DNA from: Clostridia bacterium
GTDB lineage: Bacteria > Bacillota > Clostridia > Oscillospirales > Acutalibacteraceae
NCBI GenBank assembly: GCA_017621885.1
Contig: JAGASD010000015.1
Location: 1 to 53,193, forward strand
DNA length: 53,193 bases
Direction of reading: 5' to 3'
Both the position numbers and the translations under genes were made by a program. Position 1 is the first letter of the stretch, and each line of letters opens with the position of its first letter. The notes beneath the pieces are model-generated. The model did no database searches. It worked only from the letters and a program-made list of their open reading frames with translations, and was not told the origin of the DNA. Positions 11,926 to 46,453 of this stretch are shown here, piece by piece.

Positions 11926-12900
11926 TCATCTCGGAATGTTTATAAGTGCACAGGATGGGTTGAGGACGCCTTTGTCCGGGTTTTCAACATCTACAAAAAC
12001 AGCGACCTCAAATACCTTACCCTCAACCTGCGTAGCATTTGTAAAGGGAACAATTTCACCGTCTATATACAAATGTGAGTAATTTACGGGTAGAATTCCG
12101 TAATCGTCGCCTTCTTCTATTGTTTTCCACATATATGAATCGTTGTTGATAAAATATCCGTAGTCGGTTGTGTTGCCTGATAACTCAACAATCTTTCCTA
12201 TATCTGCTGTTGAAAGGAAATTGATGTACTTATTAAAATGAATACCATCAATATTCAAATCGGTATCATTCTGATGCATACTTATTGATGTCTGTGGGTT
12301 GCCCGTTTCGTCATTTAACCAATATTTTACGGAAATTTCTTTGAAGGTTTGGTTGTCGCATATTCTCATATCAATATAGGTGATATCCCCGTTTTTATCA
12401 TATCTTACCAAAGACTCGGTGCAGACTGCATAAGAAGAAATGTTGAATTCCTTGTATATTGCTGCTGATATTTCATAAAAAACGCTGTTTTTATTTTGAG
12501 AATACAATTTCAAAGAAATATGTTCGTTTTTTTGTGAGTTAACTGCCTGATAAACTGCAAAGAATCCTGAAATTAAGGTTATGATACTTAAAATTAAAGC
12601 GATAATGCGTCCTTTGTGCTTTTCTTTTTTTGTATCCTTCATAACATTAATAATGGTTTTGTCAGCTTCTTCCTGAACATTTTCAGGGAGAATTTTTTCA
12701 CCGTTTAAAAGCTCGTTTATGCTTACCTCGAACAGGTGACTGATTTTTTCTATTGTTTCAACATCGGGGTAACATTTGCCGGTTTCCCATTTGGAAACTG
12801 CTTTGTCCGTTACTCCCAGTTTTTCTGCCAATTCTTTTTGAGTTAATTCTTTTTCTTTTCTGAGTTGTGAAATGAACTTTCCCACGTTAACTGCATTCAT
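11926..12900 (-). CDS. XRE regulator with one membrane segment and exported domain
   Basis: A 324-residue protein. Residues 5-65 are an XRE helix-turn-helix (LTQKELAEKLGVTDKAVSKWE, CYPDVETIEKISHLFEVS). A basic stretch (KDTKKEKHKGR) precedes one hydrophobic helix (IIALILSIITLISGFFAVY, near residues 101-119). The remaining 200 residues lie outside by the positive-inside rule and have no family I recognise. ATG 12900 was chosen because AGGAGG lies directly upstream; the longer reading starts in the promoter. The gene has its own promoter containing a symmetric operator-like repeat and is divergent from the small membrane protein at 13067, which it may also control. Confidence 0.75.
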   Translation of the reverse strand: MNAVNVGKFISQLRKEKELTQKELAEKLGVTDKAVSKWETGKCYPDVETIEKISHLFEVSINELLNGEKILPENVQEEADKTIINVMKDTKKEKHKGRIIALILSIITLISGFFAVYQAVNSQKNEHISLKLYSQNKNSVFYEISAAIYKEFNISSYAVCTESLVRYDKNGDITYIDMRICDNQTFKEISVKYWLNDETGNPQTSISMHQNDTDLNIDGIHFNKYINFLSTADIGKIVELSGNTTDYGYFINNDSYMWKTIEEGDDYGILPVNYSHLYIDGEIVPFTNATQVEGKVFEVAVFVDVENPDKGVLNPSCALINIPR

Positions 12901-12922
12901 AACATCTCCTCCTTGTATCTGA

Positions 12923-12971
12923 ATTATATAACGAAACATAGAAAAAGTCACCCTACTTGTGGTAGAATGAC
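12923..12971 (-). promoter_or_regulatory. Promoter overlapped by a two-part symmetric operator candidate
   Basis: On the minus strand GTGACT (12951-12946) and TATAAT (12928-12923) are 17 bases apart. Overlapping the -35 is the symmetric array GTCA-2-CTAC-5-GTAG-2-TGAC (12947-12971 on plus). Exact symmetry over the -35 is what an autorepressing XRE dimer would need. Confidence 0.55.
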
Positions 12972-13005
12972 AGTGTGATGTAGGAATAATTAAAAATAAT
13001 GTTTG

Positions 13006-13034
13006 TTGAAATTGTTCTTTTACTGTGTTAAGAT
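13006..13034 (+). promoter_or_regulatory. Promoter for the small membrane protein
   Basis: TTGAAA (13006-13011) and TAAGAT (13029-13034) are 17 bases apart, 33 bases before ATG 13067. It is divergent from the XRE promoter, and the operator candidate at 12947-12971 lies between the two. Confidence 0.5.
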
Positions 13035-20917: not shown

Positions 20918-21466
20918 TTGAATAAATCAATGAAAATTTGGCAGAAAATCGGATTTGTGTTTACGGGAATAAGGGGAGTTTTACTGCATTTCGTTTACGA
21001 CTGGACGGATGAAAGCATTTTTGTTGCGCCTTTTTCGGCTGTTAATGAGTCAACTTGGGAGCATATGAAGCTGTTGTTTTTCCCTATGCTTACTTTTGCT
21101 TTTATTGAGTACAGATTTGTCGGAAAGAATTATGAGAATTATTGGTGCGTTAAGCTTATAGGCATTTCGGTAGGTCTTGCGGTAATTCCGACGCTTTATT
21201 ACACATATACCGGGGCTTTGGGGGTTTCGGCGGATTGGTTTAATATTACTATTTTTTTTATTGCTGATGCGGTTGCTTATTTTGTTGAAGCAAGACTTTT
21301 TATAAATGAATTTTCATTATACAAAGGGAAGCGCATCCCCATTGTTATTCTGCTTATTATTTTTGCGCTTTTCGTTGTGTTTACGTTCTTTACACCTAAG
21401 ATACCGATTTTTATGGACCCGGTTACGAAGGCTTACGCAGGTGGTATTTTGCCTTACGGAAAGTGA
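20918..21466 (+). CDS. DUF6512-like integral membrane protein
   Basis: A 182-residue protein with about five hydrophobic helices (IWQKIGFVFTGIRGVLLHFVY, LLFFPMLTFAFIEYRFV, VKLIGISVGLAVIPTLYYTY, FNITIFFIADAVAYFVEARLF, IPIVILLIIFALFVVFTFF). The segment PFSAVNESTWEHMKLLFFPML between the first two is characteristic of a small family of Clostridial membrane proteins I remember as DUF6512; function unknown. It starts with TTG (20918), with GGGTGAT 4 to 5 bases upstream; the ATG four codons later has no ribosome site. It stands alone between two terminators. Confidence 0.7.
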   Translation: MNKSMKIWQKIGFVFTGIRGVLLHFVYDWTDESIFVAPFSAVNESTWEHMKLLFFPMLTFAFIEYRFVGKNYENYWCVKLIGISVGLAVIPTLYYTYTGALGVSADWFNITIFFIADAVAYFVEARLFINEFSLYKGKRIPIVILLIIFALFVVFTFFTPKIPIFMDPVTKAYAGGILPYGK

Positions 21467-46064: not shown

Positions 46065-46067
46065 TAT

Positions 46068-46097
46068 TGTTTTTTTAGTGCTTGGTGTTAGTATAGC
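46068..46097 (+). promoter_or_regulatory. Candidate promoter of the small hydrophobic peptide mRNA
   Basis: TTGTTT (46068-46073) and TATAGC (46092-46097) are 18 bases apart. The expected RNA would begin near 46103 with a short 5' hairpin, GGGG-GTGT-CCCC (46103-46114). Confidence 0.4.
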
Positions 46098-46115
46098 AGT
46101 AGGGGGTGTCCCCTT

Positions 46116-46215
46116 GGAGCTATTCTGATACGGGTAGGTGGTTAGTCTCTTTAACAGAGATACTGAACTCTCTGATTACATAGAAATCCTACAAGGAAAT
46201 TTGCAATCAGAAGAG
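46116..46215 (+). promoter_or_regulatory. Structured leader that hides the ribosome site
   Basis: CTCT-CTGATTACA (46168-46080 onward, i.e. 46168-46180) pairs with TGCAATCAG-A-AGAG (46202-46215), with one bulge and one mismatch. This covers most of the ribosome site AGAAGAGG (46209-46216). Upstream GGAGCTATTC (46116-46125) is complementary to GGATAGCTCC (46368-46377) in the mRNA 3' end, with further matches GATA/TATC and GGTTAG/CTAACC. Such end-to-end pairing and SD masking are typical of type I toxin mRNAs. Confidence 0.55.
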
Positions 46216-46224
46216 GTGATAGCT

Positions 46225-46290
46225 ATGAGCGAAGTAATCGTTATTTTAGCCATCATTTTCTTTACGGTTCTTATCATTAGAACAAAATAA
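46225..46290 (+). CDS. Small hydrophobic peptide, candidate type I toxin
   Basis: A 21-residue peptide, ATG 46225 to TAA 46290: MSEVIVILAIIFF then TVLIIRTK. It is one membrane-spanning helix with an acidic N-terminus and basic C-terminus, the shape of Ibs, TisB, BsrG and other type I toxins, although I match it to no named family. AGAAGAGGTG lies 8 bases before the ATG but is predicted to be sequestered. The mRNA 3' end is complementary over about 90 bases to a convergent antisense RNA with its own promoter and terminator. A regulatory leader peptide or a phage-relic holin fragment are alternatives. The module sits alone in a 390-base gap between ybaK and a HAD phosphatase gene. Confidence 0.7.
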   Translation: MSEVIVILAIIFFTVLIIRTK

Positions 46291-46330
46291 GAAAACAACC
46301 GCCTGACTTCCAAATAAGGCGATTGTTTTC
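46291..46330. terminator. Hairpin directly after the peptide gene, minus-strand terminator
   Basis: GAAAACAACCGCCT pairs with AGGCGATTGTTTTC across an 11-base loop. On the minus strand it is followed by TTATTTTGTTC, so it is placed to end the antisense RNA close to the stop codon. On the plus strand it may protect or slow the mRNA 3' region. Confidence 0.65.
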
Positions 46331-46349
46331 AATAATCAAATTATTAAGT

Positions 46350-46382
46350 GGGGGCTAACCGTCTATCGGATAGCTCCTTTTT
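46350..46382 (+). terminator. Terminator of the peptide mRNA
   Basis: GGGGCTAACC pairs with GGATAGCTCC (one G-U, one mismatch) followed by TTTTT (46378-46382). The 3' arm is also complementary to the mRNA 5' end (46116-46125). Confidence 0.65.
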
Positions 46383-46389
46383 CATTTAT

Positions 46390-46418
46390 ATTATATTCTA
46401 TTGTTTTGTGAAAAACAA
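46390..46418 (-). promoter_or_regulatory. Promoter of the antisense RNA
   Basis: On the minus strand TTGTTT (46418-46413) and TATAAT (46395-46390) are exactly 17 bases apart. Confidence 0.6.
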
Positions 46419-46453
46419 CGCTTTTGCCCAAATTTATAACATTTTTGTGACAT

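Follow-up and report, generated by a model that had tools for sequence, protein, structure and literature searches.

A candidate type I toxin–antitoxin cassette on an apparently undescribed antisense RNA scaffold in gut Clostridia

In the TxpA/BsrG family of Bacillus subtilis, represented by bsrG/SR4 and txpA/RatA, a small membrane peptide is encoded together with a convergent antisense RNA at the mRNA 3′ end (PMC6562991). The par/Fst system (RNA I/RNA II) is described with convergent promoters, a bidirectional terminator, a hidden Shine–Dalgarno sequence and a 5′ hairpin (PMC7472228). TxpA-like and Fst-like sequences have been predicted in two further Clostridium species (PMC6563280) and Fst has been placed in commensal Clostridia (PMC7472228), so type I toxins in Clostridia are not new as such. 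The present analysis concerns a unit of ~300 bases at 46067–46418 of the window, by which is meant the whole 53,193-nt contig JAGASD010000015.1 of a Clostridia bacterium (assembly GCA_017621885.1). The unit has the general arrangement of these systems, including convergent promoters and a bidirectional terminator.

The unit is probably a type I toxin–antitoxin cassette, TxpA/BsrG-like in its logic; judged from sequence comparison, the probability of this reading is about four in five. Computation supports its parts, their conservation, the RNA structure, the scaffold held in common with peptides of Hol_Tox, an established family of putative toxins, and presence or absence at one site. Both the RNA family and the window peptide are apparently undescribed, and one RNA scaffold, not of the par/Fst kind, appears to carry many exchangeable peptides. 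A first-pass annotation had proposed a compact, possibly undescribed module here. This stands for the RNA family and for the window peptide but not for an isolated module, since the unit is a member of a large family.

The antisense RNA family

Near-full-length relatives, at 79–91% identity, were found within the genus by DNA search. Partial DNA matches, conserved at the ends only, were also obtained, and their loci read as the same layout with other peptides. In 19 aligned antisense regions, 96.7% of cells are paired in the terminator T1, with two-sided changes in 6/13 pairs; the antisense 5′ hairpin (helix 1) is weaker, with 75.1% of cells paired and two-sided changes in 3/11 pairs. Taken together, the two helices lie above all 500 shuffles in paired cells and in covariation score, and their number of pairs with two-sided change is matched by 11/500 shuffles. 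Pair types are no more numerous than in the shuffles, 440/500 of which reach the observed number.

A covariance model of the antisense RNA, R1, was built from 19 loci and searched in whole genomes. The first-pass annotation had suggested a covariance-model search of related genomes for the whole 350-base unit. The search with R1 found relatives in 12/22 genomes of the genus (E≤0.01), 43/250 of a family sample (E≤1e-5), 45/295 of an order sample and 13/398 of a phylum sample, the samples overlapping and including the own genome. Up to 13 copies of the unit are present in one genome of the family sample. The own genome has two clear R1 copies, the second of which encodes MITYSELFLFCSLIVSIIALVVNLTKKK and passes the Hol_Tox cut-off (Pfam PF16935), with 25.0 bits against 23.3. 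A tandem array of five units, with a 332-bp period, 89% match and near-identical peptides, was observed at L108 806–2477 (G370:C1).

Rfam gave 0 matches at gathering score in the window and 0 in 20 relative loci. No Rfam riboswitch or leader family is thus matched by the region at gathering score. Relaxing the threshold to E≤5 gave six matches (GibS, STnc410, L20 leader and others), all well below gathering scores, and these were rejected. No paper describing the RNA scaffold was found in the literature searched; most subscription papers lay outside the search, which makes this weak evidence of novelty.

The counts that follow derive from two locus searches with R1. The first (82 of 117 loci) contributed 94/96 matches, excluding L010, a duplicate of L060, and a second-strand match in L111; the second contributed 75/79, excluding L121, L151, L168 and L173, which were cut or short. 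From the 169 matches, 154 distinct units were kept, 122 with both anchors and 112 with the leader motif, the last falling into 75 clusters. Promoter counts are taken from the 94 matches only, because the other loci were fetched with a sequence pattern.

Among the 92 distinct matches in loci fetched without a pattern, the antisense −10 hexamer is exactly TATAAT in 77, and TTGACA is exact in 75 at a spacing of 16–18 nt; a shuffled control reached 6/6 in 0/92. R1 extends only ~10 bases upstream of the −10, so the antisense −35 falls outside the model. Exact TTGACA occurs in 15/19 model-building loci and in 60/73 others, and, lying outside R1, is independent evidence for the putative antisense gene. 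Promoter, structure and terminator of this gene are conserved across relatives at the sequence level, the transcripts being predicted.

Searches of plasmids and phages yielded no close copy; distant blastn matches comprised one 22-base phage match and two Lachnospira eligens megaplasmids. In a tblastn search of plasmids and phages with two Hol_Tox-like sibling peptides nothing useful was obtained, with one match at E=2 and otherwise none or short partial matches among those listed. One IMG/VR contig carries a unit. Two neighbouring antisense-model matches lie on such a contig at L194 1078–1344, and the stronger goes with MTSYETLSVVIGVSTLIVLILTYTSNKK, which is read from a TTG start and passes the Hol_Tox cut-off. 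The 627-kb plasmid of L. eligens ATCC 27750 (NC_012780) has a complete unit between two MATE transporter genes (L195 ~1800–2110). This unit, whose peptide is MLTTELFIAIISLCITCFALGYTIGSKSKK, does not appear in the plasmid collection's gene table.

Peptides on the scaffold and their apparent exchange

A hydrophobic open reading frame (ORF) ending at the terminator is present in 125/154 distinct units. These ORFs give 111 distinct peptide sequences of 21–45 aa, which are not 111 families. Start codons were assigned by rule (ATG preferred, shortest of ≥20 aa), and as a result a few sequences, that of L140 among them, are truncated. K or R lies within the last four residues in 111/111 scaffold peptides. 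The window peptide ends IRTK and is small and hydrophobic with a charged C terminus, as type I toxins are.

When the 111 peptides were scanned singly, Hol_Tox matched 31 at E≤0.05 (best 7.2e-9) and 80 were without a match. The Hol_Tox cut-off of 23.3 bits was passed by 8 of 20 likely siblings examined singly, at 24.7–35.8 bits. PepG1 (NF041589) and ComI (NF052249) each matched 14/111 peptides at E≤0.05, with best values of 6.7e-6 and 1.1e-6. No PADLOC family was found in more than one of the 111 peptides, and no match to the window peptide was found in the PDB by sequence. Five distinct relative sequences keep the frame of the window peptide open and free of insertions and deletions. A longer reading from an in-frame GTG (50 aa), though open in the window, is closed in L007 and was dropped.

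Antisense leaders that resemble one another can accompany unlike peptides. Among 125 units there are 460 pairs with antisense leaders >80% identical and peptides <35% identical; these are non-independent pairs, a few of them owed to truncated starts. For example, L036 (MNETIVVLAIIFFIVLLIRTK), the window's sister, and L157 (MQYVTYGDMFTFAIVIVGILSLVFTILTFTHKK; Hol_Tox 16.7 bits, below cut-off) have leaders 93% identical and peptides 30% identical. L036 is also identical over 36 nt of antisense leader to L124, which encodes MQYVTYENLFAFCTVIISIIGLCISIFKHKK, a peptide scoring 24.7 bits and so above the Hol_Tox cut-off. The window leader has an identity of 0.91 to that of L036 and 0.70–0.78 to those of four units with cut-off-passing peptides. 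These identities tie the family-less 21-mer to a scaffold that carries Hol_Tox.

The unit behaves as a cassette, being present at one junction in three genomes and absent in three others that were read. In the window, G013 and G014 it lies between two convergent genes, one with a tRNA-editing domain and the other for a HAD hydrolase (Pfam assignments); in the window it fills the convergent junction, a gap of 389 bp at 46065–46453. The same two genes also meet in G005, G008 and G006, where the unit is absent and the two stop codons lie 0, 25 and 45 bp apart, respectively. A plain hairpin occupies the unit-free junction in two of these genomes and nothing in one.

Layout, folding and leader pairing

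The elements listed in the first-pass annotation are all present in the sequence (Table 1): the 21-residue peptide with its ATG and TAA, the plus-strand promoter, the convergent minus-strand promoter with exact 17-base spacing, and a terminator hairpin whose first base directly follows the stop codon. The complementary mRNA ends could likewise be read, GGAGCTATTC (46116–46125) pairing with GGATAGCTCC (46368–46377) with one G·U pair, and the proposed masking of the ribosome site is borne out by a Shine–Dalgarno sequence that is paired in the predicted window mRNA.

Table 1. Features of the unit in the window
Feature	Position	Strand	Reading
Toxin-mRNA promoter	46067..46094	+	TTGTTT (−35, 46067–46072, 3/6), 16-nt spacer, extended TGtTAGTAT (46086–46094; −10 4/6)
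5′-terminal hairpin of toxin mRNA	46101..46114	+	Fold of window mRNA; putative transcription start ~46101
Leader repeat IRa (GGAGCTATTC...GGTAGGTGGTTAG)	46116..46145	+	Inverted copy of the antisense RNA 5′ leader
Ribosome-site hairpin	46168..46215	+	AATCAGaAGAG (including start of Shine–Dalgarno) pairs with CTCTCTGATT; predicted fold
Shine–Dalgarno GAGGTGAT	46213..46220	+	Read from sequence; aligned in relatives
21-aa single-helix peptide MSEVIVILAIIFFTVLIIRTK, presumed toxin	46225..46290	+	ATG 46225, TAA 46288–46290
Bidirectional intrinsic terminator T1, common to both RNAs	46291..46330	.	Begins on the base after the stop codon
Antisense 5′ hairpin/sense second hairpin T2, then T5 on plus strand	46350..46382	.	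Contains inverted repeat IRb (46354–46377)
Antisense RNA, ~100 nt, presumed RNA antitoxin	46284..46383	−	Covariance model R1; putative start ~46383 and end at T1
Antisense promoter	46390..46418	−	TTGTTT (complement of 46413–46418), 17 nt, TATAAT (complement of 46390–46395)

In the toxin-mRNA promoter, the T, A, A and T of the −10 are invariant across 18 aligned sequences, 17 of them relatives. The 5′ hairpin occurs in some relatives as the variants GGAAC/GUUCC, GAGC/GCUC and GGGG/CCCC, and is missing in others.

A 306-nt stretch of the window copy has a folding energy with z of −6.0 on the plus strand and −7.4 on the minus strand, and 0/100 shuffles were as good. Around the window Shine–Dalgarno, 8/9 bases of AGAGGTGAT have an unpaired probability of 0.00–0.15 in both predicted transcript forms; its first A has 0.50 and 0.31 in the two forms, and in the start codon U and G are predicted to be unpaired. 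Across 90 modules the predicted mean unpaired probability of the Shine–Dalgarno is 0.10, vs 0.29 with shuffled leaders, and it is below 0.2 in 76% of modules vs 36%. Leaders of L002/L047 and other Hol_Tox-type units read GGAGGG-CCCTCC-GGAGGG. The middle segment could pair upstream and so leave the ribosome site exposed, or it could pair with that site itself, a possible switch.

The mRNA 5′ leader and the antisense 5′ leader are near copies of each other, i.e. inverted repeats in the DNA. Summed over the 75 clusters, the cognate leader match is 788, vs 619 for permuted pairs (SD 11; maximum 657 in 5000 permutations); the two predicted RNA starts co-evolve. In clusters with ≥9/13 identical positions, 69 transitions would be G·U in the folded-back mRNA and 14 would not, besides 66 transversions. 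The G/A excess may partly reflect A-rich antisense starts; T/C alone gives 28 vs 6, an excess that may in turn partly reflect the antisense hairpin's own needs. End-to-end pairing of >8 bp is predicted in 111/112 full-length mRNAs and in 108/112 swapped-tail controls; the cognate advantage lies in the predicted extent of this pairing, 23.8 vs 18.3 bp. The window copy's own end-to-end repeat is at best 9/12 identical and is predicted to pair with the help of G·U.

These features suggest how the cassette might work. A sigma-A-type promoter would drive an mRNA with a folded-away ribosome site, so that synthesis of the presumed membrane toxin, the hydrophobic peptide of 21 residues, would be slow or would await refolding. 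The convergent promoter, near consensus in most relatives, would make a short antisense RNA ending at the shared bidirectional terminator. Its complementarity would lie in the 3′ portion of the mRNA; by position, and with its predicted ends, the antisense RNA would cover T1 and the 3′ tail and not the ORF start. RNase III could cut the resulting complex, or the complex could be held untranslated. Both transcripts, their ends, the toxicity of the peptide, the antitoxin action and the involvement of an RNase are putative. In an mRNA reading through T1, the 5′ leader could pair with its own 3′ tail and so close the molecule into an inert form (~28 bp predicted in the window copy); this form would not exist for an mRNA stopping at T1.

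A broader proposal is tentative and rather doubtful. On this view one RNA-control cassette, so far undescribed, is widely distributed among Oscillospiraceae-like gut Clostridia and extends to other lineages of the phylum, and it has taken up many dissimilar membrane peptides by exchange. The antitoxin RNA would begin with a co-evolving copy rather than a complement of the toxin-mRNA leader, so that antitoxin and leader would compete for one 3′ tail of the mRNA. Strand exchange with the antitoxin would free the closed mRNA and direct it to decay, and specificity among up to 13 copies per genome would come from the variable part of the repeat.

Alternative readings and described systems

In a module of the par/Fst type, direct repeats (DRa/DRb) around the start codon would let the antitoxin pair with the mRNA and repress its translation. 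Such a module would account for the convergent promoters, common bidirectional terminator, hidden Shine–Dalgarno and 5′ hairpin, which are par features (PMC7472228). Direct repeats, compared in 92 representatives of the 112 units, are indeed slightly above permuted pairs (9.14 vs 8.95 of 12, 7/5000 permutations as high; 8.67 with shuffled leaders). This signal is small and that of inverted repeats is large (10.77 vs 10.07 of 12; 0/5000). The PXXXG(C) motif of the par toxin (PMC7472228) is lacking in the window peptide, because it has no proline or glycine, and a par/Fst-type module is very unlikely. It is most improbable that the unit is a miniature mobile element (MITE-like) with inverted repeats serving transposition. 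Its ~300 bp, multiple copies, presence or absence at one site, inverted repeats and tandem array of five would suit such an element, but the repeats lie inside the promoters, and they co-evolve in each copy and differ from one copy to another; inspection by eye of the one site read showed no evident target duplication.

The window unit, which fills a convergent-gene junction where other genomes have a plain hairpin or nothing, would fit a regulatory RNA pair or a terminator island between convergent genes, with the peptide ORF incidental. So would those scaffold units in which no ORF was recognized, and the lack of significance in the codon-position test of the window's own group. The settings of the scaffold are varied, however: neighbour pairs of 111 units comprise 39 convergent, 16 divergent and 56 co-directional. 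The preference for convergent junctions is modest, 39/111 vs 129/567 adjacent pairs in the same loci, a background that includes the units' own junctions. The constant position of the hydrophobic ORF in most units and the Hol_Tox matches also argue against an incidental ORF. So does the sister group of 21 sequences of 23-mers, in which mean entropies by codon position are 0.74/0.39/1.19, clearly a coding pattern at the level of aligned sequence. A regulatory RNA pair or terminator island with an incidental ORF is very unlikely.

Several observations weigh against the toxin–antitoxin reading. In the window's own group of six coding sequences, including the window, variable columns number 7/7/10 by codon position, which is not significant (P=0.20). 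The rule used gave no membrane ORF in 29/154 scaffold units. At least two of the 29 were missed by the rule itself: L093 fell to the hydropathy threshold, and L130 to the stop-position window, its ORF (MITTSELLQLMSLLISVAGLFYLIGKDN...) extending beyond the hairpin. In the window copy each −35 box is weak, matching 3/6, and for that reason neither promoter was listed in a consensus scan of the window; the terminator hairpin was likewise not listed, because its 12-base loop exceeds the scan's loop limit of 8. The window peptide matched 0 families in Pfam, NCBIfam and PHROGs at E≤10, which agrees with the earlier statement that it fits no named family and means that homology to TxpA/BsrG toxins was not found in these collections. 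Among the sibling scores examined, the highest is 25.6 bits for PepG1 against an NCBIfam cut-off of 70, and 22.1 bits for ComI against one of 55; both lie far below, so these are distant resemblances only. Lastly, R1 does not detect the RNA opposite bsrG in phage SPBc2. Its best match in the 45 kb has E 0.0072 at 21203–21340, and that nearest to the ORF which we take to be bsrG (12739–12855) has E 0.35 at 12916–13031, E-values that come from five sources searched together. The place of the gene and its transcript ends are our assumption, as the record does not name the ORF.

Separately, one scaffold copy, at L025 1494–1628 and among the 29 units just mentioned as having no membrane ORF by the rule, is without any such ORF and has apparently decayed.

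The significance of the putative type I cassette lies in its RNA: one model without an Rfam counterpart reveals a family across gut Clostridia through RNA and not through toxins. The model is a handle for annotating membrane peptides down to 21 aa, and its many paralogues make the family well suited to the question of how RNA antitoxins stay specific. Roseburia inulinivorans DSM 16841 and L. eligens ATCC 27750 are named hosts for study, the unit being locus L130 in the former and lying at ~160.1–160.5 kb of NC_012780 in the latter.

Among described systems, the Clostridioides difficile type I modules (CD2517.1-RCd8 and others), likened here by description, are also from Clostridia and also have convergent toxin and antisense RNA genes. 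They differ in having toxins of 34–59 aa, with eight modules in prophages or the skin element (PMC6563280). The aapA/IsoA system of Helicobacter, and hok/Sok, resemble the present unit in that the toxin mRNA is predicted to pair over a long distance, 5′ to 3′, and has hairpins by which the Shine–Dalgarno is hidden (PMC6733600). Hol_Tox peptides sit on the same RNA scaffold in relatives, although the window peptide itself has no match to that family at E≤10. The par/Fst system has direct repeats where the present unit has inverted ones. In bsrG/SR4 and txpA/RatA the Shine–Dalgarno lies in a short helix (PMC6562991), as is predicted here, and TxpA, at 59 aa, is longer than the 21-aa window peptide (PMC4147584). 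The likeness to txpA/RatA and bsrG/SR4 drawn in the first-pass annotation is apt, as end-to-end pairing is predicted for bsrG mRNA also and the direct repeats of par/Fst are barely above control. The ORF taken as bsrG has 38 aa against 21 in the window, and the closure predicted for its mRNA in SPBc2, ~32 bp, is of the same kind as that predicted here.
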